A stretch of 64,000 nt of DNA from Roseibium sp. TrichSKD4 (GTDB lineage Bacteria > Pseudomonadota > Alphaproteobacteria > Rhizobiales > Stappiaceae), in NCBI RefSeq assembly GCF_000148725.1, contig NZ_GL476320.1:592400-656399 (forward strand), read 5' to 3'. The notes under the pieces were generated by a model. The model had not been told where the DNA came from. It made no database searches and saw only the letters and a program-made list of their open reading frames with translations. Of the stretch, positions 17,931-30,692 are shown piece after piece. A program made the position numbers and the translations under genes. The stretch's first letter is position 1. Each line of letters begins with the position of its first letter.

Positions 17931-19472
17931 TCAAACGTTGCTGTCTGGGAAGGAGGCTTTGCGTTCTTCCATGAAGGCAACAAGTGCCTCATCAATGCCG
18001 GGGTCGAGTTCAGGGCCGGTATAGGCGGCCAGTTGCTCTTTCCAGATCTTGTTGGCCCGTTTGGCGGCGTCCAGCTCGCCATCAGCCAGCCATTGCTCAT
18101 AGGAGTTGTTGTCAGCCACAGTTGAGCGGTAGAAGGCGCTTTCAAAGTTGCGCTGGGTGTGGGCTGCGCCGAGGAAGTGACCGCCCGGTCCGACTTCTTC
18201 CAATGCATCCATGGCTATGGCTTCGTCTGAAAGGTCGATGCCCTTTGCCAGAACATGCATCATGCCTAGTTGATCGGCGTCCATGACGAATTTTTCGTAG
18301 GACGAGCAAAGGCCGCCTTCCAGCCATCCGGCCGCATGCAGACAGAAATTGACGCCGCCTTGAACCGTTGCCGTAATGGTTTGCGCTGATTCCTGCGCAG
18401 ACTGCGCGTCCGGCAATTTGGATGCCGTGAAAGAGCCGCCAGAGCGGAAGGGCAGGCCGAGGCGACGGGCGAGTTTTGCTGCGCCGTTCAAAAGCAGAGA
18501 GCCTTCCGGGCTGCCGAAGGTCGGCGCGCCAGATTGCATGGAAATGGAGCTCACGAATGCCCCAAAGACAACCGGTGCGCCCGGACGGATCAGCTGGGTG
18601 AGGGCGCAGCCTGCCATGGCCTCTGCGAGCACCTGTGCCAGCGTGCCGGCGACCGTGACCGGGCTCATGGCACCTGCCAGAATGAAAGGCGAGACAATAC
18701 AAGCCTGATTGTTTTTGGCATAAACCTGCAGCGCGCCGAGCATGGTTGCATCAAACACCAGCGGTGAGTTGGCGTTGATAAGCTGGATCATCACGCAGTT
18801 CTGGTCGACAAATTCCTCGCCAAAGACAATCTGCGCCATTTTGACGGAATCTTCCGCCCGTTCCGGCGCGGTGACAGATCCCATGAAGGGTTTGTCGGAA
18901 TATTTGATATGGGAATAGACCATATCAAAGTGGCGCTTGTTGACCGGCAGATCCACCGGCTCACAAACCGTGCCGCCAGAGTGGTGCAGCCACGGAGACA
19001 TGTAGGCCAGCTTCACGAAATTGCGGAAATCATCAATCGTGCCATAGCGACGACCGTTGTCGAGATCGGTCACAAAGGGAGGGCCATAAACCGGGGCGAG
19101 CACAAGGTTTTTGCCGCCGATTTCGACGTTCCTAGCCGGATTGCGCGCATGCTGAGTAAATTGGGCAGGGGCTGTTTTCAGGATTTCCCGCAGCATGCCT
19201 TTTGGAAAGCGAACCCGCTCGCCATCAACTTCTGCGCCAGCTTGTTTCCAGATTTCCAGAACTTCTGGCGCTTCACGGAATTCCAGACCGATTTCTGCCA
19301 GAATGCGGTCGGCATAGGCTTCGATCTTTTCCGCACCTTCATCGCTGAGCACTTCAAAATTCGGAATGTTCCGATTGATGTAAGGCGCGCCGACAACGCC
19401 GCCTCCCGTCTTGCGACGTTCCCGGCGAGCAGATCGTCCGCGGCGGCCCGCAGAAACAGCAGCGTCAGTCAT
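17931..19472 (-). CDS. MttB-family corrinoid methyltransferase without pyrrolysine (glycine betaine type likely)
   Basis: The 513-residue protein belongs to the trimethylamine methyltransferase (MttB) superfamily. Conserved stretches include LVLAPVYGPPFVTDLDNG, LHHSGGTVCEPVDLP, QLINANSPLVFDATMLGAL and GAPTFGSPEGSLL. The frame has no internal amber codon, so it is a non-pyrrolysine member. Characterised members of that branch move a methyl group from quaternary amines such as glycine betaine to a corrinoid protein. The neighbours (corrinoid protein, activase, methyl-THF transferase, DMGDH-like enzyme) fit glycine betaine best, but the substrate is inferred. Residues 9-25 form an arginine-rich N-terminal tail (GRRGRSARRERRKTGGG). 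The gene is transcribed divergently from the DMGDH-like gene. Confidence 0.88.
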   Translation of the reverse strand: MTDAAVSAGRRGRSARRERRKTGGGVVGAPYINRNIPNFEVLSDEGAEKIEAYADRILAEIGLEFREAPEVLEIWKQAGAEVDGERVRFPKGMLREILKTAPAQFTQHARNPARNVEIGGKNLVLAPVYGPPFVTDLDNGRRYGTIDDFRNFVKLAYMSPWLHHSGGTVCEPVDLPVNKRHFDMVYSHIKYSDKPFMGSVTAPERAEDSVKMAQIVFGEEFVDQNCVMIQLINANSPLVFDATMLGALQVYAKNNQACIVSPFILAGAMSPVTVAGTLAQVLAEAMAGCALTQLIRPGAPVVFGAFVSSISMQSGAPTFGSPEGSLLLNGAAKLARRLGLPFRSGGSFTASKLPDAQSAQESAQTITATVQGGVNFCLHAAGWLEGGLCSSYEKFVMDADQLGMMHVLAKGIDLSDEAIAMDALEEVGPGGHFLGAAHTQRNFESAFYRSTVADNNSYEQWLADGELDAAKRANKIWKEQLAAYTGPELDPGIDEALVAFMEERKASFPDSNV

Positions 19473-19889
19473 GGGGGACCCCTAATTTAGAGAATTGCCA
19501 GTGTTGCATGAAGTCTTAGGCAAGTTTGGATTTTGCCTCTGCCCAGATCCGTCTCAACTTGCTCTAATTACGGCATGATAGCGTTTCGGTGCGAAAGAAA
19601 TGCCGCCGTAATTTCCTTGCGCATATGCTTTTCTTTTTTCGGGTGAACAGGTCCGATTTATGGCTGTTCAGCTTGTGAATTCGCTTGCCCGTGTCGTGGC
19701 GCTTATGCTGCCGTGACGCAATTAGGCTATCTGGCTTGCTTGAGCGCCGCGATACTGCCGTTTGAAAGATCAAATCCGTAAGACACTCCTCACCAGTCGG
19801 GCGAGGAGATGCACGCTTTGATATGCGGATGACAAAGGCAATTGGACCCTGAGAGAAAATCGGGGCGGTCGGTTGAAGAGGAAGAAAAG
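19473..19889. promoter_or_regulatory. Divergent promoter region between MttB-family and DMGDH-like genes
   Basis: This 417-base gap serves both divergent genes of the methyl-transfer cluster and carries no convincing gene. It contains an inverted repeat, TGAACAG (19644-19650) and CTGTTCA (19664-19670), with a 13-base spacer. The centre-to-centre distance is 20 bases, about two helical turns, which suits a dimeric regulator. The region ends in GAGGAAG, the ribosome binding site of the gene at 19890. Confidence 0.45.
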
Positions 19890-22451
19890 ATGTCAGCGTT
19901 TCCTGACAAGGCACAGGTTGTCATCGTCGGTCTGGGAGGCATCGTGGGGGCATCTATTGCCCATCACCTGATCGAACGCGGATGGACTGATATTGTCGGC
20001 ATCGACAAATCCGGCATACCGACCGATATCGGCTCGACGGCCCATGCGTCCGACTTCTGCTACACCACCAGTCATGATTACCTATCGACATGGACGTCGC
20101 TCTATTCTGTCGAATTCTTTGACAAGATGGGCAATTACGAGCGTGTGGGCGGGTTTGAAGTTGCGCGCACTGGCGATGATAACTGGATGGAAGAAATCAA
20201 GCGCAAGGTTACTTCCGGCAAAGCTTTTGGCACCAATGTGCGTCTCGTGACACCTGCCGAAATCAAGGAACAATTTCCCTTGATCGAAGAGGACCAGGTG
20301 CAAGGCGGGATGTTTGATCCCGATGCCGGTCTGGTTGTTCCGCGTTCGCAGACGGTTGCTGGAAAGCTGGTGGAAGAGGGCGAAAAGACCGGCAAGCTGA
20401 AATCCTTCGCCAACACGCCGGCCCAGTCCCTGATCGTTGAAAATGGCCGTATCACCGGTGTCAAAACGCATCGCGGCACCATCATGGCAGATCATGTGGT
20501 GGTGTGTGCGGGTCTGTGGGGGCGTCTGATCGCCAATATGGTGGGCGAAGATCTGCCAGTGATGCCAGTTGACCACCCGCTGACTTTCTTCGGCCCTTAC
20601 ACCGAGTTTGAAGGCACCGGAAAGGACATTGGTTATCCCTTAATGCGCGATCAGGGCAACTCGGCCTATATGCGTGATACGGGCGACCCCAAAACAGCAG
20701 AAGGCGGCCAGATCGAGTGGGGGTATTACGAGACGGACAACCCGCGCATGTGCCACCCGCGCGACCTGCAGGAAAAGGAAGAGGCGCGACTTTCACCCTC
20801 CCAGCGCGACCTGGAAATGGAACAGGTAATCGAGCCGCTGGAGCGGGCCATGGAGCTGACGCCGATCCTCGGCGAGATCGGCTACAACGAGCACTGGTCT
20901 TTCAATGGTCTTCTGCAGGTGTCTGCTGCTGGCGGTCCATCCTGTGGTGAAAGTCAGAAAGTGCGCGGTCTTTGGTACTGCGTTGCGATCTGGGTGAAGG
21001 ACGCGCCGGGTTATGGCAAGCTGATCGCCGACTGGATGACGGATGGGCGGACAGAAATCGACCACGCACCGATTGATTATTCTCGCTTTTATCCGCACCA
21101 GCTGACGGAGGAGTATATCGAAGGGCGCTGCTACGAAGCGGCCCAGAAAATCTACTTCCCGGCGATCCACCCGCGTGAGCCTTATGCCAATGCACGAAAT
21201 GTGAAGCGCTCCCCGTTCTATGAGCGTGAAGTTGAACTTGGCGGCTATTTCATGGAGCTTGGCGGCTGGGAGCGGGCGCATGGCTATGCGGCCAACGAAC
21301 ACCTTCTGGAAAAATACGGCGACCAGGTGCCGGTTCGCGAGAATGAGTGGGACAATCGCCACTTCTGGCGCGTCTCCAATGCCGAACAACTGGCGCTCAG
21401 TGAAGACTGCGGCATCATCAACCTGTCCCACTTCTACATGTTCGATGTGGAAGGCCCGGATCATGTTGCCCTGATGGAATGGCTCTGCGCAGCCAAGATC
21501 GGCGGCGACAACAACATCGGCAAAGGCATCTACACCCACTTCCTGGATGATGAAGGCAATGTACGGGCAGACCTGACCGTCTTCCGCATGGAAGACCGCT
21601 GCCGCATTGTTGACGGAGCGGATGCCGGCCCGCGTGATTATCACTACGTCAAACGCGTGGCAGAGGACAAAGGCTTTGACGTCACCGTGACTGACGTCAA
21701 CGAGCAGTACACCACCATTGGCATCTGGGGCCCGAACGCCCGCGAGAACCTGAAAAAGGTGGTGAGCGAGCTGTCAGACCTTGATCTGGAAAACTTCCGG
21801 TTTGCAGGTCTTCGCCAGATTGAGATTGCGGGCAAGCCTGTTTCCGCCCTGCGCCTTTCCTATGTCGGGGAGCAAGGCTGGGAACTGCACATGAAGTATG
21901 AGGACGGTCTGGCTGTCTGGGACGCCTTGCGCGATCTCGGCATCATGGCCGTTGGCGTTGAAACCTACGCAAACTCCCGCCGATTGGAAAAGTCCCTGCG
22001 TTTGCAGAACGCGGACCTTCTGACCCAGTACAATCTTTATGAGGCTGATCTTGCCCGTCCAAAGGTCAAGGAAGCGGATTTCCGAGGCAAAGCCAAGCAT
22101 CTGGAATACCGCGCACGCGACAAGCAACCGGCAATGCTCTGCACGCTGGTGATGACCGAGCACACAGATTCAAAGGGTGTGAAGCGATACCCGGTTGGTA
22201 CCATGCCGGTTCAAGACCCGGACACAGGCAAGACGCTTGTCGATGAGCTGGGCCGGATTTCCTACACGACCTCAGTTGCCTACGGCCCGACGATTGGCAA
22301 GAACATCGTCCTTGCCTATCTGCCGCAGGAGTACGCGCAGGTCGGCCGCAAGCTGCAGGTGGAGTATTTCTCCGAGAGCTATCCGGTTGAAGTGGCTGGT
22401 GTCGGCTACGCCCCGCTCTACGACCCGGAAAACCTCAAGCCACGGAGTTAG
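19890..22451 (+). CDS. DMGDH/sarcosine-dehydrogenase-like FAD oxidoreductase with GcvT domain
   Basis: The 853-residue protein joins an N-terminal FAD-dependent amine oxidase domain (VVIVGLGGIVGASIAHHL nucleotide-binding motif, GSTAHASDF with the histidine where such enzymes often attach FAD) to a C-terminal aminomethyltransferase (GcvT) domain that binds tetrahydrofolate (from about residue 430; LRLSYVGEQGWELHM, VGVETYANSRRLEKS). Such enzymes demethylate dimethylglycine or sarcosine and hand the carbon to THF as methylene-THF. Next to the MttB-type gene it could act on the dimethylglycine left after betaine demethylation. The ATG at 19890 has GAGGAAG in front. The exact amine is not proven. 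Confidence 0.85.
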   Translation: MSAFPDKAQVVIVGLGGIVGASIAHHLIERGWTDIVGIDKSGIPTDIGSTAHASDFCYTTSHDYLSTWTSLYSVEFFDKMGNYERVGGFEVARTGDDNWMEEIKRKVTSGKAFGTNVRLVTPAEIKEQFPLIEEDQVQGGMFDPDAGLVVPRSQTVAGKLVEEGEKTGKLKSFANTPAQSLIVENGRITGVKTHRGTIMADHVVVCAGLWGRLIANMVGEDLPVMPVDHPLTFFGPYTEFEGTGKDIGYPLMRDQGNSAYMRDTGDPKTAEGGQIEWGYYETDNPRMCHPRDLQEKEEARLSPSQRDLEMEQVIEPLERAMELTPILGEIGYNEHWSFNGLLQVSAAGGPSCGESQKVRGLWYCVAIWVKDAPGYGKLIADWMTDGRTEIDHAPIDYSRFYPHQLTEEYIEGRCYEAAQKIYFPAIHPREPYANARNVKRSPFYEREVELGGYFMELGGWERAHGYAANEHLLEKYGDQVPVRENEWDNRHFWRVSNAEQLALSEDCGIINLSHFYMFDVEGPDHVALMEWLCAAKIGGDNNIGKGIYTHFLDDEGNVRADLTVFRMEDRCRIVDGADAGPRDYHYVKRVAEDKGFDVTVTDVNEQYTTIGIWGPNARENLKKVVSELSDLDLENFRFAGLRQIEIAGKPVSALRLSYVGEQGWELHMKYEDGLAVWDALRDLGIMAVGVETYANSRRLEKSLRLQNADLLTQYNLYEADLARPKVKEADFRGKAKHLEYRARDKQPAMLCTLVMTEHTDSKGVKRYPVGTMPVQDPDTGKTLVDELGRISYTTSVAYGPTIGKNIVLAYLPQEYAQVGRKLQVEYFSESYPVEVAGVGYAPLYDPENLKPRS

Positions 22452-22468
22452 GCAAGGGATCGAATGGC

Positions 22469-22529
22469 GCCCCGGACACCGATCCGGGGCCTTTGAGACC
22501 GTGAGATGGCCCCGGTTCAAGACCGGGGC
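22469..22529. repeat. Tandem GC-rich palindromes
   Basis: Two palindromes share the same arms: GCCCCGG...CCGGGGC at 22469-22490 and again at 22509-22529. They lie directly behind the DMGDH-like gene. This is the look of a REP/BIME-type intergenic repeat and may also slow or end transcription. Confidence 0.7.
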
Positions 22530-22548
22530 GGCGACTACAATATACCAA

Positions 22549-22574
22549 AACCCGCGTAGACATCTGCGCGGGTT
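22549..22574 (+). terminator. Hairpin between DMGDH-like and homocysteine-methyltransferase-like genes
   Basis: AACCCGCG (22549-22556) pairs with CGCGGGTT (22567-22574). The tail behind it is only weakly T-rich, so it could be a leaky terminator or an mRNA-stabilising stem inside the operon. Confidence 0.45.
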
Positions 22575-22634
22575 CTGCTATTTCGCATATACAAAGTTAT
22601 CGCAGCGAAAGCTGCTTTGGTGGGCAAGAAAATC

Positions 22635-23660
22635 ATGTCGAAATTTGAAGATCTTCTGGCGAATAAAGGTGCGCTATTGGCAGACGGGGCCACGGGCACG
22701 ACCCTGTTTGATATGGGGCTCACTTCGGGTGATGCGCCAGAGCTTTGGAACGTGGATGAGCCTGAGAAAATCAAGGAACTGCACCGCGGCTTTGCCGAGG
22801 CTGGTTCGGATATCATTCTCACAAACACGTTCGGGGCCAATCGGCACCGGTTGAAGCTTCACAATGCAGAAGGACGCGTGAAAGAGCTGAATGCAGCTGG
22901 TGTTCGTCTGGCCCGGGAAGTTGGTGAAGCGTTAGGCCGCGATGTACTGGTGGCCGGATCGATCGGTCCAACAGGAGAGCTGTTCCAACCTCTCGGCGCA
23001 CTGAGCTTTGAAGAGGCAGTTGAGGCATTTGTAGAGCAAATCGACGGGTTGATTGAAGGCGGCACTGATATTCTTTGGGTTGAGACCATGTCTGCCCCTG
23101 AAGAAATGAAGGCTGCAGCAGAAGCGGCCAAGGGCAAGGGCGTGCCGCTGGTGATCACGGCCAGTTTCGACACCGCTGGCAAGACCATGATGGGCCTGTC
23201 TCCAAAAGGTATGGCGCAGCTCAAGTCAGAGTTTTCCTGCGAGCCGGTGGCGATTGGGTCAAACTGCGGTGTTGGCGCGTCCGATCTTCTTGCTGCCATT
23301 TCCGAGATCACGGAAGCAGACCCTTCCGCCATCGTCGTTGCCAAGGCAAACTGCGGCATTCCGGAAGTTCGCGGCGACGAAGTCGTTTACACCGGCACGC
23401 CGGAGCTGATGGGCAAATACACCCATATGGCGCTCGACGCGGGGGCACGGATTATCGGCGGGTGCTGCGGCACGTCGGCAGGTCATCTCGCCGCTATGCG
23501 TTCAGCGATGGACACACACACCAAAGGCGAGCGCCCCACACTGGAGGCAATCCTTTCGGAAATCGGTCCGCTCGTCTCACCTCCCAATCTGGAAGCCGAT
23601 GCAGCCCGGGAAAGCGATGGCGGCGGGTCTGGACGCAGGCGAGGACGACGGCGCGGGTAG
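22635..23660 (+). CDS. Homocysteine S-methyltransferase-family protein (BHMT / MetH-N-like)
   Basis: The 341-residue protein has the zinc-thiol methyltransferase barrel. It opens with LLADGATGTTLFDMGL, and the zinc ligands are Cys211 (GSNCGVG) and Cys277-Cys278 (GGCCGTS). Members methylate homocysteine using betaine, S-methylmethionine or methyl-THF/cobalamin. In this cluster it may take the methyl group from betaine or methyl-corrinoid, giving methionine, but that is inferred. After the domain the chain ends with SGRRRGRRRG, an arginine-rich tail not needed for the fold. The start is the ATG at 22635; an in-frame TTG six codons earlier is less likely. Confidence 0.8.
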   Translation: MSKFEDLLANKGALLADGATGTTLFDMGLTSGDAPELWNVDEPEKIKELHRGFAEAGSDIILTNTFGANRHRLKLHNAEGRVKELNAAGVRLAREVGEALGRDVLVAGSIGPTGELFQPLGALSFEEAVEAFVEQIDGLIEGGTDILWVETMSAPEEMKAAAEAAKGKGVPLVITASFDTAGKTMMGLSPKGMAQLKSEFSCEPVAIGSNCGVGASDLLAAISEITEADPSAIVVAKANCGIPEVRGDEVVYTGTPELMGKYTHMALDAGARIIGGCCGTSAGHLAAMRSAMDTHTKGERPTLEAILSEIGPLVSPPNLEADAARESDGGGSGRRRGRRRG

Positions 23661-23685
23661 TTTCCAAATATGCATATTGGACGCT

Positions 23686-23845
23686 GTCATTCCAGACAAG
23701 CTGAACCAGAGTGAAGCGCAGATCTGGAATCCAGACATAAGTCAGGCTTCGCGTGGCTTGAGCGTTTTTGGAATTCGCTTAGGCTCATGCTGCAACGCTG
23801 GATTCCGGATCATCGTGCAGCTTTGCTGCACTCGTTCGGAATGAC
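23686..23845. repeat. Intergenic 160-bp repeat-like element with inverted ends
   Basis: The stretch is bounded by GTCATTCC (23686-23693) and GGAATGAC (23838-23845). It contains further mirrored pieces (ATCTGGAATCCAG and CTGGATTCCGGAT). It fills the gap between two convergent genes. The form is that of an interspersed palindromic repeat of the kind scattered through alphaproteobacterial genomes. Copy number cannot be judged from this window. Confidence 0.6.
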
Positions 23846-23885
23846 TGAAGTAGATGCGCCAACAAGTTGAACACGATAGCGGTGG

Positions 23886-25919
23886 CTACCCCCGCCGACG
23901 CCTTCTGCGTCTACCGCCGTCATCGCTGCCGGCCGTTTCAAGTTCCTTACGCGCTGGCAGCTCGACGGCTGCGCGGAGCTTCGGGAAGGGGTCCACCTTG
24001 TTGGGCAGGGCCATGGCATTGACGAAGTGATTCTGGAACTTGGGTTCCAGCGCGGTTTCGATTTTCTCAATGTCTCGAACGGTTTGCTCGATCTCGCGGC
24101 GATATCCCATGTTGAGAAGGGCCATGCGCGCGCCTGTGCCAGCTGCGTTGCCAACTCCTGACACATGATCCACCGAGCAATCCGGGATAAGCCCCAAAAC
24201 CATGGCATAGGTCGGATCAATGTAGCTGCCAAAGGCACCAGCGAGTTTGATGCGGTCAATCTTGTCTGTGCCGAGCTTGTCCTGCAGCAGTTTCACACCG
24301 GCATAAAGGGCTCCCTTGGCCAGCTGAATGGCACGGATATCCGTCTGCAGGATTTTGATTTCAACGTCCCGGTCGGCGATCTTGTACGAAAAGGTGCGGC
24401 CTGAGGCCTCAACGCGGTCTGTCCGCTCGGCCATGGAACCATCGATGATGCCATCTTCGGTGATGAGGCCTGAAAGATACATTTCAGCGACGGCTTCAAT
24501 AATGCCGGAGCCGCAGATGCCGGTGACGCCGACCTGATCGATCTTTTCCTCAAAACCGTCTTCATCTGACCATTCATCAACGCCGATGACCTTGTAGCGC
24601 GGCTCCAGCGTGTTGCGATCTATGCGCAGGCGCTCAATGGCTCCGGGAGCGGCGCGTTGGCCGGAGGAGATTTCAGCCCCCTCAAAGGCTGGTCCGGTTG
24701 GAGAACTGGCCGCCAGAAGGCGGGCCTTGCCGCCCAGAACGATCTCGGCATTGGTGCCAACGTCGACCAAAAGCGTAATTTCTTCAGACGAATAGGGGCT
24801 TTCCGCCAGTGTAGCTGCTGCTGCGTCCGCCCCCACATGACCAGCAATGCACGGCAGCATGTAGACATGCGCACCAGGGTTCAGCTCCAGATCAAGATCA
24901 CGGGCTTTCAGCTGCAAGGCATCAGAAACAGCAAGCGCAAACGGCGCACCGCCCAACTCTACCGGGTCAATGCCAAGGAAGAGGTGGTGCATCACCGGGT
25001 TGCCGACAAAGACGGCATCCAGAACATCGGATCGCTCTGCGCCAACATCTGCCACCAGCTTGCCGATCAGCGCGTTGATGGCATCGCGCACAGCCTTGGT
25101 GAGATCCGGCAGCTTGGCGGGGTTCATCTGCACATAAGACACCCGCGACATGAGGTCTTCGCCAAAACGGATTTGCGGGTTGGACGTGCCCTGCGAGGTC
25201 ACTGTGCGGCCATTTTGCAGGTTGCAAAGGTGGGCTGCGATCGTTGTTGAGCCAATGTCGACGGCAAGGCCATAAACGCCGCGTTTTTCGCCCGGCCAGA
25301 GAGCCGAAATCGAAGCAGCGTGATCGCCATCTTCATGAAGCGCTGCGGTGACTGTCCATTTGCCTTGACGCAGGATGGTCTGGATACGCGGCAAAAGGGC
25401 CGGATCAATTGTCAAGTTGGCCACACCGCAAGCCGTGGCGACAGCTTCGCGCAGGCGGTCAGCATCCCCGCGCGGTGTTTCCATGTCCGGTTCTTCCAAA
25501 GTGACTGTGACCAGCCGGATCGGCGAATCTGCCTTTATGGCCTTGGCTTCGGCGCGCTTGCGCACAACTTGCCGGTTGGTCTGGGCATCGGTTGGAACAT
25601 CAACAACCAGGTCGCCCAGAATTTTTGCCTGACAGGAAAGGCGACGGTCAGCGGGTAGGCTGCGCTTTTCCGCGTAGCGGTTTTCTGCGTCGGTTGCTGG
25701 CGCAAGGTGGCTTGCGTCACTGACGACATTTTCCTTGGCAAAGGAACCTTCGGAAACGGAAATCTGGCAGCGGCCGCAAATACCGCGACCACCACAAACA
25801 GATTCAACATAAACACCGAGAGAGCGTGCAGCATCCAAAAGAGGTGTGCCAACGGGGAAGGTACCCCGTCTTCCACTTGGCTGGAAAACGACCTTTGCCA
25901 GTTCCTTGCCGTTGCTCAT
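23886..25919 (-). CDS. Corrinoid-activating ferredoxin-ASKHA protein (RamA/DUF4445 type)
   Basis: This 677-residue protein reactivates the corrinoid after accidental oxidation to Co(II), using ATP and low-potential electrons. The N-terminus is a plant-type [2Fe-2S] ferredoxin domain with Cys42, Cys48, Cys51 and Cys96 (VCGGRGICGRC, LSCQ). The remainder is the DUF4445/ASKHA ATPase module, with VYGLAVDIGSTTIAAHLC as phosphate-binding loop and LLVDVGTNAEIVL and KLAGAFGSYIDP as further signatures. It is the last gene of the minus-strand operon that begins with the corrinoid protein. The C-terminus ends in GGRRRRRRRG. The start has GGGAG in front. Confidence 0.9.
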   Translation of the reverse strand: MSNGKELAKVVFQPSGRRGTFPVGTPLLDAARSLGVYVESVCGGRGICGRCQISVSEGSFAKENVVSDASHLAPATDAENRYAEKRSLPADRRLSCQAKILGDLVVDVPTDAQTNRQVVRKRAEAKAIKADSPIRLVTVTLEEPDMETPRGDADRLREAVATACGVANLTIDPALLPRIQTILRQGKWTVTAALHEDGDHAASISALWPGEKRGVYGLAVDIGSTTIAAHLCNLQNGRTVTSQGTSNPQIRFGEDLMSRVSYVQMNPAKLPDLTKAVRDAINALIGKLVADVGAERSDVLDAVFVGNPVMHHLFLGIDPVELGGAPFALAVSDALQLKARDLDLELNPGAHVYMLPCIAGHVGADAAAATLAESPYSSEEITLLVDVGTNAEIVLGGKARLLAASSPTGPAFEGAEISSGQRAAPGAIERLRIDRNTLEPRYKVIGVDEWSDEDGFEEKIDQVGVTGICGSGIIEAVAEMYLSGLITEDGIIDGSMAERTDRVEASGRTFSYKIADRDVEIKILQTDIRAIQLAKGALYAGVKLLQDKLGTDKIDRIKLAGAFGSYIDPTYAMVLGLIPDCSVDHVSGVGNAAGTGARMALLNMGYRREIEQTVRDIEKIETALEPKFQNHFVNAMALPNKVDPFPKLRAAVELPARKELETAGSDDGGRRRRRRRG

Positions 25920-25942
25920 TGCCGCTCCCGGTATTGTTTTTA

Positions 25943-26893
25943 TCAGGCCGTCCGACGTGCCGCGCGCCCGCCGCGGCGGCGACCGCCCGCGCTTGGCGCT
26001 TCAGTTGGAGCAGCTGATGCCCCGGCTGCTGCCGGTTGGTGATCACGATAGGTCATGATCCATTCCTGACAGTTCGGGTCAGTGCCATTGAGCACGTTCG
26101 CTGCACGAACAGCTTCCATTTCCTGCGGACGGCACGGGTTCATGATGGCGGAGGTCATGCCTGTGGCAATAACCATCGGAATGAATGCCCCGTTGATGCC
26201 GTGACGATGCGGCAGGCCGAAGGAGATGTTGGACAGGCCACAGGTGGTGTTGACTTTCAATTCGTCGCGGAGGCGGCGAAGCAGTTGGAACACCTGCTGA
26301 CCAGAAGTGCCAACAGCGCCAATGGGCATGACCAGCGGGTCTACCACAATGTCGTGTGCCGGGATGCCGTAGTCGGCAGCGCGTTCGACGATTTTCTTGG
26401 CAACGGCAAAGCGAACGTCCGGATCTTCGGAAATGCCGCTTTCATCGTTGGAAATCGCAACAACCGGCACATCATATTTTTTCACCAGCGGGAGAATCGC
26501 TTCCAGCTTTTCTTCTTCACCGGTGACAGAGTTGACCAGGGGGCGGCCCTTAGCGACCCGGAGCCCTGCCTCGATTGCGGCGGTAACTGAGGAATCGATG
26601 GAGAGCGGAACGTCGACAAGTTCCTGAACGATCTCAAGCGTCTTGACCATGAGTGGCGGCTCGGTCTCGTTCGGGTTGACCGCCGTCACACCAGCATTGA
26701 CGTCCAAAACTGTTGCGCCTGCTGCGACCTGTGCCAGAGCGTCGGCTTTTACGGTTTCGAAGTTGCCTTCGTTCATTTCCGCTGCAAGCTTTTTGCGGCC
26801 GGTCGGATTGATGCGCTCGCCGATAACGCAGAACGGCTGATCAAAGCCGATGATGACTTCCCTGGTCGCCGAAGCCACAATTGTGCGTGTCAT
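25943..26893 (-). CDS. Corrinoid protein:tetrahydrofolate methyltransferase
   Basis: The 316-residue protein has the pterin-binding TIM barrel of methyl-THF methyltransferases (MtgA/MtvA/AcsE-like): VIGERINPTGRKKLAAEM, ATVLDVNAGV, VPLSIDSSV, VNSVTGEEEK, DIVVDPLVMPIG and GLSNISFGLPHR. It would carry the methyl group from methyl-corrinoid to THF, giving methyl-THF. It is 24 bases upstream of the activase gene and 13 bases behind the MetF-like gene. After the barrel comes a low-complexity Ala/Pro linker and the basic tail GGRRRGGRAARRTA, matching tails on three other proteins of the cluster. Confidence 0.9.
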   Translation of the reverse strand: MTRTIVASATREVIIGFDQPFCVIGERINPTGRKKLAAEMNEGNFETVKADALAQVAAGATVLDVNAGVTAVNPNETEPPLMVKTLEIVQELVDVPLSIDSSVTAAIEAGLRVAKGRPLVNSVTGEEEKLEAILPLVKKYDVPVVAISNDESGISEDPDVRFAVAKKIVERAADYGIPAHDIVVDPLVMPIGAVGTSGQQVFQLLRRLRDELKVNTTCGLSNISFGLPHRHGINGAFIPMVIATGMTSAIMNPCRPQEMEAVRAANVLNGTDPNCQEWIMTYRDHQPAAAGASAAPTEAPSAGGRRRGGRAARRTA

Positions 26894-26906
26894 TTTCGTA
26901 TTTCCC

Positions 26907-27791
26907 TCAAGCTCTCAGGGATGATGTGTCAGTGCTGCGAAAGGACCAACTCCGACGGTTGGCGAGCCATTCGCCGGTTTTTTGGATGCCGCCAAACGGA
27001 TAAACATGCAGCTGCTGCAACTGAGTATCTGGGCGGGCTTCAACGCGGGTCTCTAATGGGCCGACCATGGTTTCCGGGTCGTATCCGGCTAGCATGGACA
27101 CCACGGATCCGCCGCGTTTCTTCAAGAAGTTCAAAGAATTCTCAACACCGGCAAAGGCGGCGTATTTAATCAAGGTGGTCATTTTCGCCGGACCGGCAAT
27201 GCCGATATGGACGGGGAACTGGTTGCCCCAGCCAGCGATCTCGTCCAGCCACTGGCTGACTTTGTGCGGGTCAAAGCCGAATTGCGTTGCCAGAATGAAC
27301 TGTGCATCGCTCTCAGCGGCCAGTTCATGTTTGCGCATCAAGAAGGACTTGATGACATCGGGCTTGATTTCGGGCGCACCTTCCGGGTGACCGGCAACCG
27401 CAATCGTTTTGATGCCCAGTTTGTCGAAGAGACCGGTTTCCAAAAGAGCGACAGATGAGGTGAGTGGGCCGGCCTTGTCGGCTTCACCAGCAATTGCCAG
27501 CACGTCAGTTACGCCGGCTTCCTGGGTCAGGCGCGTGATCCGTGTTTCAAAAGCATCTACGCTCTGATACCGGCGTGCGGCCATATGCGGGACTGGCGTG
27601 TAGCCACGGTCGCTCAGAGTTTTTGCGGCAGAGACGATCATGTCTTCTGAGGCATTGCCCAAGTCTGTGACATAGACCCGTGTGCCTTTTGGAATGAACT
27701 CCAGCAATTCAGATTTTTCAACCACTTGCTTGGGCGACATTTCTGTCGAAGCGGCAAGGCGGCCTTCCGGCGTCAGGCGGTGATCAGACAT
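26907..27791 (-). CDS. Methylenetetrahydrofolate reductase-like protein
   Basis: The 294-residue protein has the MetF-type barrel (IPKGTRVYVTDLGNASEDM, YTPVPHMAARR, VLAIAGEADKAGP, ATQFGFDPHKVSQWL, VHIGIAGPAKM). It is divergent from housekeeping MetF. In this operon it would run in the oxidative direction, converting methyl-THF to methylene-THF so that the carbon can be oxidised further by FolD and Fhs. It starts eight bases inside the end of the upstream 'virulence factor' gene, with AAGGAG in front of the ATG, so translation is probably coupled. Confidence 0.82.
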   Translation of the reverse strand: MSDHRLTPEGRLAASTEMSPKQVVEKSELLEFIPKGTRVYVTDLGNASEDMIVSAAKTLSDRGYTPVPHMAARRYQSVDAFETRITRLTQEAGVTDVLAIAGEADKAGPLTSSVALLETGLFDKLGIKTIAVAGHPEGAPEIKPDVIKSFLMRKHELAAESDAQFILATQFGFDPHKVSQWLDEIAGWGNQFPVHIGIAGPAKMTTLIKYAAFAGVENSLNFLKKRGGSVVSMLAGYDPETMVGPLETRVEARPDTQLQQLHVYPFGGIQKTGEWLANRRSWSFRSTDTSSLRA

Positions 27792-28086
27792 GCTCCTTGC
27801 CTCCCTGGTCGAGCAATAATTTCAGGCGGTTTTTTGGGTAGGCCGCAATCAGGTCCTGGAGGGCTGTATCAGCCTCTTGCTCCAGTTCGTCTGAGACATC
27901 AACAGGATCAGCGCGGCGCCATTCAGCCATATAGGCCTCGCTGTCCTTGGCTCCTACGCGCATGGCGCAGGCATCAATTGCTTCCATGAAAACGGGCGGC
28001 ATTTCACGGCGCGCACTTTTACGACCCTTTTTGACAAGGATCTGTGCCGGGATATCCCTCCAGAAAACAATGATTTTTTGAGCCAT
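27784..28086 (-). CDS. 'Virulence factor' family small protein of the methylamine-type cluster
   Basis: This 100-residue protein (IIVFWRDIPAQILVKKGRKS, later DELEQEADTALQDLI) matches a small conserved family annotated only as virulence factor and often found with MttB-type genes. The name says nothing about its role. A basic patch (KKGRKSARR) is followed by an acidic second half. It overlaps the MetF-like gene by eight bases and is preceded by GAGGAAGGGA. From the company it keeps I infer an accessory role in one-carbon or corrinoid chemistry. Confidence 0.75.
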   Translation of the reverse strand: MAQKIIVFWRDIPAQILVKKGRKSARREMPPVFMEAIDACAMRVGAKDSEAYMAEWRRADPVDVSDELEQEADTALQDLIAAYPKNRLKLLLDQGGKEHV

Positions 28087-28194
28087 AACAATGTCCCTTC
28101 CTCAGCCAGATCATTGCCGGAACGCCCCAACGTCAGGCGGTTTGAATGCGGCACGCGCAAATTCAAAAACGACCTGTCCCCAATCGCCTTGATT

Positions 28195-28863
28195 TCACGG
28201 CAATTCTTCCCCGTGTCGAGGGTCGGTTTCCCGCAGAAAGTCGCCAAGCATTCCGTATCCGGTCACGTGCATTTGAAAGGGGAGTTCAAGGCGCTCTGCA
28301 GCAGCTCTTGCGGCGTTTTCCAGCTTGGGGTCGTTCGTCTGCGCGAGGTAAAGAATCCGGGTGTAATGCGCGAAGTAGAGATCTTTGAGTTCCGGTTTCC
28401 AATCCAGTCCCAGTGGATCAACAACCATTGTCTGGAAATGACGGGCCAGAAAATCTGTGAGGTAAAAGGTGCCAAGCTGGTCGTCTTCCAGCTGATCAAA
28501 CGCCTCCAGCCCACTAAAGAAGGCGTAGCAATGGGCGCCTTCAATGCGCCGCGCGCCTGTTTCTTCCAGAACCTTGTCGAGAAGGCCGCCAGTGCCGCAA
28601 TCGCCGTAACCAATCAGGATATCGTCATAGACGGCCCTGTTTGCCAGGATCGCGCGGTGAACTTCGCCCGGGATTTTGTCTGGGGTGTTGTGCAGCTGCG
28701 CAGGCAGGCAGGTGAGATCAATGTGATTGAGCCGGTTGATTTCCTTGATAGCGAGGATTTCCCGGGCCAACGCACCGCAGGCAATAACAAGAACCCGGCC
28801 AATTTTCTTGGCCGGGCCTAATTCTTCTTCAGGAAGCGGGAAGAGGGGAATATCCTCTGCCAT
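28195..28863 (-). CDS. DUF1638 protein
   Basis: The 222-residue protein has the DUF1638 hallmarks: VLVIACGALAREILAIKE at the start, CLPAQLHNTPDKIP, ILIGYGDCGTGG with a conserved cysteine, and HCYAFFSGLEAF. The family is uncharacterised. It occurs next to corrinoid methyltransferase genes, and the conserved Cys/His residues make metal or corrinoid handling plausible, but that is inference. The gene follows the corrinoid protein gene by 16 bases, so the two are clearly in one operon. Confidence 0.8.
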   Translation of the reverse strand: MAEDIPLFPLPEEELGPAKKIGRVLVIACGALAREILAIKEINRLNHIDLTCLPAQLHNTPDKIPGEVHRAILANRAVYDDILIGYGDCGTGGLLDKVLEETGARRIEGAHCYAFFSGLEAFDQLEDDQLGTFYLTDFLARHFQTMVVDPLGLDWKPELKDLYFAHYTRILYLAQTNDPKLENAARAAAERLELPFQMHVTGYGMLGDFLRETDPRHGEELP

Positions 28864-28879
28864 ACCGCTTCACGTCTGA

Positions 28880-29584
28880 TCAGGCCTTGCCGGCCAGTTG
28901 GTTGTGACGACGCGCGATGAGGTCTTTTGCCATTTCAACAGCAACTGCTGCATCGCGGCAATAACCGTCAGCTCCAACAGCTTCCCCAAATTCTTCGTTG
29001 AGCGGAGCGCCGCCAACCAGAACGATGTAGTTGTCGCGAATGCCTTTTTCTTCCATCGCGTCGATGACAACCTTCATATAGGGCATGGTGGTTGTCAGCA
29101 GAGCAGACATGCCAAGGATGTCAGGCTGGTGCTCTTCAAGCGCTTCCAGATAGTTCTCGACCGGGTTGTTAATGCCAATGTCGATCACTTCGAACCCGGC
29201 ACCTTCCATCATCATGGACACAAGGTTCTTGCCGATGTCGTGAATGTCGCCCTTAACCGTGCCGATGACCATCTTGCCGACTTTGGGTGCGCCGGTTTCC
29301 GCCAGAAGCGGGCGCAGAATGGTCATTCCGGCCTTCATGGCGTTGGCAGACAGGAGCACTTCCGGCACGAAGAGGATACCATCGCGGAAGTCGACGCCAA
29401 CGATCCGCATGCCTTCAACAAGTGCCTTGGTCAGAATGTCGTAAGGAGCCCAGCCGCGCTCAAGCAGAATGTTGACTGCTTCGGTGATTTCTTCCTGAAG
29501 CCCGTCATAAAGGTCATCATGCATCTGCTCGACAAGTTCATCGTCGGAGAGGGCGTTCAGGTCAATATCGTCTTCTTCTGACAT
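28880..29584 (-). CDS. Corrinoid (B12-binding) methyl-carrier protein, MtbC/MttC-like
   Basis: The 234-residue protein has a helical cap domain (about residues 30-95) and a B12-binding Rossmann domain with the base-off motif GDIHDIGKN, in which His115 is the lower cobalt ligand. SALLTTTMPYM and VLVGGAPLN complete the family pattern. It shuttles the methyl group from the MttB-type enzyme to THF. The first 32 residues hold 14 Asp/Glu and no Lys or Arg (MSEEDDIDLNALSDDELVEQ and onwards), which is unusual for the family. GGAG precedes the ATG at 29584. It is the first gene of the six-gene minus-strand operon. Confidence 0.92.
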   Translation of the reverse strand: MSEEDDIDLNALSDDELVEQMHDDLYDGLQEEITEAVNILLERGWAPYDILTKALVEGMRIVGVDFRDGILFVPEVLLSANAMKAGMTILRPLLAETGAPKVGKMVIGTVKGDIHDIGKNLVSMMMEGAGFEVIDIGINNPVENYLEALEEHQPDILGMSALLTTTMPYMKVVIDAMEEKGIRDNYIVLVGGAPLNEEFGEAVGADGYCRDAAVAVEMAKDLIARRHNQLAGKA

Positions 29585-29885: not shown

Positions 29886-30692
29886 GGGTTCAGACACATT
29901 CATTACCAGAATGCAACGAGTGTTGCGATGGCTACAGCGGACAGGAAGTTTCTGGCGAGTTTGTCGTAGCGGGTTGCGACCCGGCGGAAATCCTTCAGGC
30001 GGCAGAAGGCGTTTTCGATGAGATGGCGGTTCTTGTAGCGTTCGGTATCATAGCGGATGGCGCGTTTACGGTTTGAGCGGCCGGGAATGACCGGGACGAT
30101 TGCGCGCTGGCGCAGATGTCTGCGCAAGCTGTTGGCATCGTATCCCTTGTCAGCGAGCAGGTACCTTGCTCCCTTCAAGCCTGCCAGCAGATGAGGCGCA
30201 ACCGGAGTGTCTGCGGCATTGCCGCCAGTCAGCAGGAACGCAAAAGGACGGCCGATCACGTCGGTAAGAGCATGGATTTTTGTGGTTTGCCCACCCCGCG
30301 ACGGCCCGACCGCCTGATTTTTCGCCCCCCTTTACCGCCGTGGGCCGAGCGATGCGCCTTGACGTAGGTACTGTCGATGGAGGTGCTTTTGGTCACCGCG
30401 CCCGACGTTGCCAGCGTCTCGACCAGATCGGTCCAGAACCGTTTGCGAGACCAGCGGTTGAAGCGGTTGTAGATCGTCGTCGAAGGCCCATAGGCTGACG
30501 GGCAATCGCATCAGCGGCATCCCACTTTGAGAACATGGATGATGCCTGAAATCACCCTGCGGTCATCGACCCTGCGAGCGCCCCCTATGTTCCTCGGCAG
30601 AAGTGGCTCGATCGTTGCCCATTGCTCATCCGACAGCCAAAACAGATGTCCCATACAAGCCTCCAAATCACATATTTTGGAACCTTGAATCT
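29886..30692. mobile_element. Degenerate IS5-family (IS427-type) element
   Basis: The stretch encloses two out-of-frame halves of an IS5-family transposase on the minus strand. The ends are approximate: AGGGTTCA near 29885 and AGATTCA on the other strand near 30692 are the best candidate terminal repeats, sharing only a few bases. A length near 0.8 kb fits the group. The element separates the corrinoid operon from fhs. Confidence 0.65.
29903..30654 (-). pseudogene. IS5-family transposase, interrupted
   Basis: The first part (MGHLFWLSDEQWATIEPLLP) starts at 30654 and reaches a TGA at 30511-30513, inside the motif where tryptophan is expected (VGCR, stop, CDCPSAYGP). The same frame then continues through IDSTYVKAHRSAHGGKGG. 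The C-terminal half lies in another frame (QAVGPSRGGQTTKIHALTD, then HLIENAFCRLKDFRRVATRY). Members of this IS group normally use a programmed frameshift at about this point, so the shift itself is expected, but the opal codon is an extra defect. The copy is probably inactive. Confidence 0.8.

Follow-up and report, generated by a model that had tools for sequence, protein, structure and literature searches.

Positions 17,931 to 29,584 of a 64,000-nucleotide stretch of the Roseibium sp. TrichSKD4 genome (contig NZ_GL476320.1, positions 592,400 to 656,399; hereafter the window) encode a known enzyme system, the split methionine synthase/glycine-betaine demethylase made up of MtgB, MtgC, MtgD, MtgE and a RamA/RACo-like corrinoid activase. 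Four enzymes of this system, all of unrelated folds, carry arginine (Arg)-rich tails, at the N-terminus of the MttB-family enzyme MtgB and at the C-termini of MtgD, MtgE and the activase, and the small corrinoid carrier MtgC begins with an acidic segment. In many alphaproteobacteria the tails are conserved, specific for Arg, nearly exclusive to MtgC partners at the loci we examined, and occur together with the MtgC segment. From sequence comparison we suggest, with a probability of about 0.5, that the tails act as a common electrostatic tag by which MtgC is recruited, and that the four enzymes acquired it convergently.

C-terminal tails were called where at least four Arg fell within eight residues inside the last 25 and the net charge was at least +2. 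Of the 46 window genes called, exactly three satisfy this rule, those for MtgD, MtgE and the activase. In 400-kb samples from three relatives, 21 of 843 called genes do so (4/237, 15/335 and 2/271), mostly without an RG-type composition; one is ribosomal-protein-like, a label given by reading rather than by search. Around the loci of 80 genomes, a strict form of the rule is passed by 160 of the 1121 genes called, and 154 of these 160 encode the activase (72/73), MtgD (64/64) or MtgE (17/17 and a fragment). Only 6 of the 966 other genes pass, the next family being a 693-residue protein with 3/17. A strict N-terminal rule is similarly passed by 40 of 52 MttB genes, followed by a cluster resembling an antisense frame (7/39). 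Chance as the source of the tails was rejected on the passing rates in the window, the relatives' samples and the loci. The initial annotation had reported Arg tails on these four proteins and had named an equal presence on unrelated proteins of the same genomes as a reason to give up its idea; all four tails are indeed present, Pfam confirms the families, and such tails are not equally present elsewhere, as judged from the loci and the relatives' samples.

Homologues were gathered from 80 titled loci and many further genomes, with identical sequences removed, C-termini cut by a locus end dropped, and calls limited to an identity of at least 45% for MtgE, 50% for the activase, 55% for MtgD and 60% for MtgC; the resulting counts come from related sequences, not independent events. 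The C-tail rule is passed by 119 of 121 MtgD, 112 of 114 activase and 62 of 63 MtgE homologues. RRGGR and one further Arg column are invariant in the MtgD tails of all 22 aligned sequences, and the two MtgD misses either end in GRGGTGRRKRG (L375) or are broken (L380). One activase miss (L007) has seven consecutive Arg, but an acidic linker; the other (L229) and the only MtgE miss (L195) come from a single genome, G084, described below. Below the 45% limit and outside the count, one MtgE-like protein is tail-less (L197) and another has a weak tail (L198). The N-terminal tail of MttB was called from at least four Arg in a 14-residue stretch ahead of the core, in a set that omits matches starting past query residue 60, three MttBs (L268, L272 and L273) and one of 159 rows. 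As called, 152 of 158 MttB sequences pass, 13 of the set being below 35% identity; the six misses comprise four cut at a locus edge, one that is tailed with an upstream start, and one that is unresolved. The MttB of the R. pomeroyi megaplasmid, outside this count, starts MTKTNRRRGRKDR. MttB paralogues are numerous, with 11 matches in each of two genomes (G203 and G233).

The tails might instead be neutral by-products of GC-rich coding or of repeat expansion at gene ends, and CGC is the commonest Arg codon in all four of them. However, the homologue DNA spans a local GC content of 0.32–0.73 without a clear trend, the rise of Arg with GC being weak and confined to MtgE (p 0.06), and tailed sequences at GC below 0.52 (6 MtgE, 10 activase and 12 MtgD) keep 6.0–6.5 Arg and only 0.2–1.5 Lys in their last 20 residues. 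Each tail uses about three distinct Arg codons, and the same trait stands on four unrelated folds while being rare elsewhere. Because tail Arg is independent of local GC, is not swapped for Lys and is encoded by mixed codons, protein-level selection on the tails is likely; the GC, Lys and codon evidence led us to reject GC-driven neutral tails, and a by-product origin appears highly improbable. In the broad sets, pairwise identity is 41–47% in the tails versus 55–72% in the cores, with the mean Arg count held at 6.3–6.6 per 20 residues.

The tails also separate MtgC partners from their neighbours. The C-tail rule is passed by none of the MetF2 proteins (0/24), the flavin adenine dinucleotide (FAD)/GcvT enzymes (0/26), the PF13769 proteins (0/78) or the formate-tetrahydrofolate (THF) ligases (0/10) at these loci, and the MetF2 copy of the window fails it despite a net charge of +3 in its last 20 residues. 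The tailed proteins are, in line with the initial annotation, enzymes that must pass methyl groups or electrons to or from the corrinoid carrier, and operon neighbours are untailed. In some alphaproteobacterial operons a different corrinoid protein lies beside its own activase and pterin methyltransferase, and none of these activases (0/7) or pterin methyltransferases (0/7) passes, although one of the latter (L263) nonetheless has a net charge of +6 in its last 25 residues. Three of these other-corrinoid operons (L261, L263 and L265) also encode a small protein of 111–133 residues with a K/R-rich C-terminus, seemingly fused to the activase in two others (L267 and L270). A haloarchaeal plasmid cluster of Halomicrococcus gelatinilyticus (L446 8941-13647), with a corrinoid protein, an ASKHA activase, DUF1638, an MtrH-like gene and adjoining FAD oxidoreductases, looks related but is tail-less; one clostridial cluster has no tails either. 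Among solved structures, matches to the MttB-family proteins 2qne and 9yce begin at query residues 32 and 36, with 16 earlier residues of 2qne unseen; RACo (3zyy) ends 9 residues beyond the match at query 641, and MeTr chains end near query 282–284. For the carrier, the match to the MtgC relative 1y80 begins at about profile position 20, and those to MttC and MtaC at 13 and 12. The solved structures agree with these contrasts. The Protein Data Bank enzyme 4yyc, from Sinorhizobium, contains an RGAAARRASR stretch.

This distribution bears on the possibility that the target of the tails is a different polyanion (RNA, a membrane lipid, polyphosphate or folate polyglutamate), which would bring the pathway together without any contact with MtgC. 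Tail composition resembles the RG-rich regions of RGG/RG RNA-binding proteins, Lys/Arg-rich low-complexity regions of bacterial proteins are reported to be often tied to DNA or RNA binding (PMC6821194), and the binding of MtgC by the tails is itself predicted from sequence co-occurrence. One genome, discussed below, has tailed proteins and no MtgC match. Against this, MtgC partners are tailed and the MetF2, formate-THF ligase and FAD/GcvT proteins of the same loci are not, and tails are also missing from the related activases and pterin enzymes that accompany a different corrinoid protein. No RNA-binding domain was found among the Pfam matches of the window proteins. We regard a polyanion target as unlikely, if the stronger of the two alternatives that keep a function for the tails.

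On the carrier side, the acidic segment is kept in 138 of 138 MtgC sequences with an intact N-terminus, and none without it was found among them; the set omits five partial or mis-started rows (L371, L144, L215, L143 and L146), and the letters DLY served as the search anchor. The segment runs for 26–37 residues up to DLYDG or DLYEG, with 7–14 acidic residues and a net charge of -6 to -14; basic residues number none in 124 sequences, one in 13 and two in 1. For the window MtgC the best start is the ATG at 29584, from which the first 32 residues hold 14 D/E and no K/R, exactly as initially annotated. Counted back from the DLYDG/DLYEG end, Leu -20, Leu -12 and Gln -9 are invariant. Because of these Leu and Gln positions the segment is a defined motif and more than a charge patch. 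The description as an acidic N-terminus holds as far as conserved acidity goes, but the segment is more aptly termed a conserved motif, in which Leu and Gln positions are invariant and D/E residues many. Its acidity overlaps that of other corrinoid proteins. The AlphaFold model of MtgC (mean predicted local distance difference test score, pLDDT, 71.6) has a helix at residues 14–27, with residues 1–4 below 50.

MttB is present in 53 of 241 genomes of the class, including all 49 genomes with MtgC. In the four MttB genomes without MtgC (G021, G224, G077 and G162), a profile search found no MtgC; G021 and G224 have MttB fragments that lack the N-terminus, G077 has broken MttB and MtgD pieces in what we think is an incomplete assembly, and G162 has MttB and MtgD that are both intact and tailed. 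The MtgD tail is kept where a full match to MtgE is missing, in six genomes (G177, G048, G251, G143, G243 and G179), and where MttB has no match, in G343. As MtgD tails thus outlast the absence of MtgE or MttB, the common counterpart of all the tails would most simply be MtgC.

We propose that the methionine-synthase modules and several betaine-type demethylases, all separate proteins, take turns on one small carrier. The terminal Arg-rich cluster of each partner would bind the acidic N-terminal segment and the cap-helix face of MtgC, weakly and fast, and so raise the local carrier concentration near each active site. The tails, if flexible, would stand in for the covalent linkers of MetH; the AlphaFold model of MtgD, which is poor throughout (mean pLDDT 54.9), is uninformative on tail disorder. 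In Ruegeria pomeroyi, genetic evidence shows that methionine synthesis and betaine demethylation both depend on MtgC (PMC12478193). Instead of such one-to-one docking, the whole pathway might co-assemble multivalently into a cluster or condensate with MtgC as the acidic scaffold: the C-tails abound in Arg, Gly and Ala and have hardly any hydrophobic or aromatic residues, and several tailed enzymes have one acidic partner in common. Against this, the Arg clusters are short (about 6–8 Arg per tail, a low valence), each MtgC chain has a single acidic N-terminal segment, and the MtgD tail persists in the genomes without an MtgE or MttB match noted above. Co-assembly therefore seems improbable, slightly more so than a polyanion target. 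Of the docking code or co-assembly put forward in the initial annotation, what stands is that the tails lie on carrier partners, are near-exclusive to them and are absent from the few outgroups tested; what does not is the matching of charges, which hardly covary.

Several observations weigh against recruitment by MtgC. Across 68 paired loci, MtgC charge is only weakly correlated with MtgD tail charge (Spearman -0.25, p 0.04) and shows no covariation with activase tail charge (Spearman 0.03), and in Paracoccus methylovorus the tails are retained opposite an MtgC segment of net charge -6. Covariation of charge between MtgC and the tails is hardly supported. The N-termini of 13 other corrinoid proteins, some with uncertain starts, are also net negative (-1 to -10). 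DUF1638, a protein implicated in B12 reactivation, is untailed in 70 of 73 cases (3/73 pass). MttBs adjoining a different corrinoid protein had been considered as a tail-less contrast, which we abandoned: two of the three (L268 and L272) become Arg-rich at the N-terminus once an upstream start is chosen, and only L273 stands. One genome (G084) has a truly tail-less activase (L229) and MtgE (L195) with MtgC kept; this is a single case in which the gene ends abut repeat-like sequence and the MtgC segment is among the least acidic (-8). Similar repeat-like sequence lies close behind both of these genes, as if a repeat had severed the tails.

The G162 assembly (L326 and L374) likewise speaks against our interpretation, as it has tailed MttB paralogues and a tailed MtgD but only a MetH-like frame, with no MtgC detected by protein or profile search. 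An assembly gap is the likely cause, but G162 may instead be a true counter-example. As for tails without a carrier bearing the acidic segment, which the initial annotation had set against its own idea, the segment is present throughout the 138 MtgC sequences, but G162 is tailed without an MtgC match. Furthermore, the P. inhibens MtgE homologue Bmt alone is reported to transfer methyl groups in vitro from betaine or dimethylsulfoniopropionate to homocysteine (PMC12366255), so MtgE may not always need MtgC. G162 and the activity of Bmt alone led us to place less weight on docking and on the broader code described next, and more on a polyanion target.

If recruitment by MtgC holds, the tails might act more generally as an address code, such that adding an Arg tail to an enzyme would suffice, in these bacteria, to bring it into the MtgC circuit; we put this forward tentatively, as somewhat less probable than recruitment itself. 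Such a code would account for the sharing of one carrier by a split methionine synthase and numerous MttB paralogues, and new MtgC clients would become predictable from sequence alone. How one small carrier finds several enzymes and an activase while avoiding rival carriers is a question for corrinoid methyltransferase systems as a whole, and the same type of tail on four unrelated folds, kept over large sequence distance, offers a simple and directly testable answer. Expression of this pathway's genes has been reported from throughout the global ocean (PMC12478193). A true recruitment tag would be a natural, portable tether, and it would help to find partners for the many MttB paralogues that are still uncharacterised.

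The window proteins were assigned to families by Pfam and NCBIfam profile searches, each model at its own cut-off (Table 1). Besides the MttB-family enzyme, the homocysteine methyltransferase, the RACo/RamA-like activase, the methyl-THF:corrinoid methyltransferase and the stand-alone corrinoid protein, the locus encodes an FAD/GcvT oxidoreductase, a MetF-like protein, a small PF13769 protein and a DUF1638 protein. The methyl-THF:corrinoid and homocysteine methyltransferases are separate, and a RamA-like activase and DUF1638 are both present, as in a split synthase. The window MtgB stays below the cut-off of the pyrrolysine-type model for MttB proper (TIGR02369; 267.3 bits versus 525), and the activase, although related by sequence to RACo (3zyy), stays below that of NF040756 for AcsV/RACo of the Wood-Ljungdahl pathway (391.9 bits versus 800). 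Among the loci found, those of Roseibium are nearest to the window, whose MtgD is 92% and 94% identical to the proteins of R. sediminis and R. hamelinense, respectively. The window MtgC scores below the cut-offs of the NCBIfam MtgC models (209.6 bits versus 370). By identity it belongs with the MtgC clade, having 51 matches of at least 70% in 49 of the 241 genomes, the next best match having 51%. The PF13769 protein (27784-28086), a 'virulence factor' by name, sits in the operon, and a 760-residue protein of Terrarubrum flagellatum (L448 11756-14038) resembles it at the start and the activase at the end (RTRRRRAQ); the PF13769 protein probably serves in corrinoid activation, not in virulence. 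A transposase-like open reading frame, recognised by eye, lies at 29903-30259 between mtgC and the formate-THF ligase gene. Two Roseibium genomes (G001 and G002) keep a full-length MetH-like open frame alongside the split system.

Table 1 Features of the split methionine synthase/glycine-betaine demethylase locus, in window coordinates
Feature	Position	Strand	Basis
MtgB-like methyltransferase, MttB family PF06253	17931..19472	-	Pfam MTTB 793.9 bits
N-terminal Arg tail of MtgB, residues 9-21, GRRGRSARRERRK	19410..19448	-	sequence
MtgE, homocysteine S-methyltransferase part of split methionine synthase	22635..23660	+	PF02574; NF005718 485 bits, cut-off 338
C-terminal Arg tail of MtgE, ends SGRRRGRRRG	23628..23657	+	sequence
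RamA/RACo-like corrinoid activase (2Fe-2S + ASKHA)	23886..25919	-	PF14574, PF17651, PF17650, PF00111; resembles RACo 3zyy
C-terminal Arg tail of activase, ends GGRRRRRRRG	23889..23918	-	sequence; codons AGA CGC AGA AGG CGT CGG CGG
MtgD, methyl-THF:corrinoid methyltransferase	25943..26893	-	PF00809; NF005719 405 bits, cut-off 259
C-terminal Arg/Gly tail of MtgD, ends GGRRRGGRAARRTA	25946..25987	-	sequence
MetF2-like protein, untailed neighbour serving as internal control	26907..27791	-	PF02219 25.2 bits, cut-off 24
DUF1638 protein, untailed neighbour serving as internal control	28195..28863	-	PF07796; window copy fails tail rule
MtgC, stand-alone corrinoid carrier	28880..29584	-	PF02607 + PF02310; best-scoring solved relative 1y80
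Acidic N-terminal segment of MtgC with Leu pattern, up to DLYDG	29501..29584	-	sequence

The enzyme system itself has been described as the MtgBCDE split synthase of Phaeobacter inhibens and Ruegeria pomeroyi (PMC5764234, PMC12478193), with the same carrier, MtgD, MtgE, MttB-type enzyme, RamA-like activase, DUF1638 and MetF2. The tails are no part of that description: the words arginine, tail, terminus, acidic and electrostatic are all absent from the main text of PMC12478193, and its Results and Discussion are silent on them too. Literature searches at the level of titles and abstract openings, which do not extend to supplements and subscription papers, showed no description of such tails among the top 7 to 20 papers listed by each, in line with the initial annotation, which knew of none for such a code. 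The tail and segment feature thus appears to be undescribed.

The methanogen pairs MtaB-MtaC and MttB-MttC (2i2x, 7xcn; PMC9842639) likewise consist of a TIM-barrel methyltransferase handing a methyl group to a small corrinoid protein. An additional N-terminal domain of MtaC appears to stabilise docking with MtaB (PMC9842639), a precedent for a docking role of an N-terminal addition on a corrinoid protein. The MtaC addition fits a folded groove between the subunits of one partner, whereas MtgC has a short acidic segment that would pair with the Arg tails of partners differing in fold, four in all. Canonical MetH performs the same methionine chemistry with homologous homocysteine, pterin and corrinoid domains. 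The MetH modules are covalently linked; the Mtg modules, in contrast, are separate and may be tethered by their tails. In acyl carrier protein recognition and in the docking domains of polyketide synthases, an acidic carrier visits several enzymes by way of basic surfaces or of docking elements at the termini. There the carrier and its partners come from other families, whereas in the Mtg system the basic element is a terminal Arg/Gly/Ala tail.

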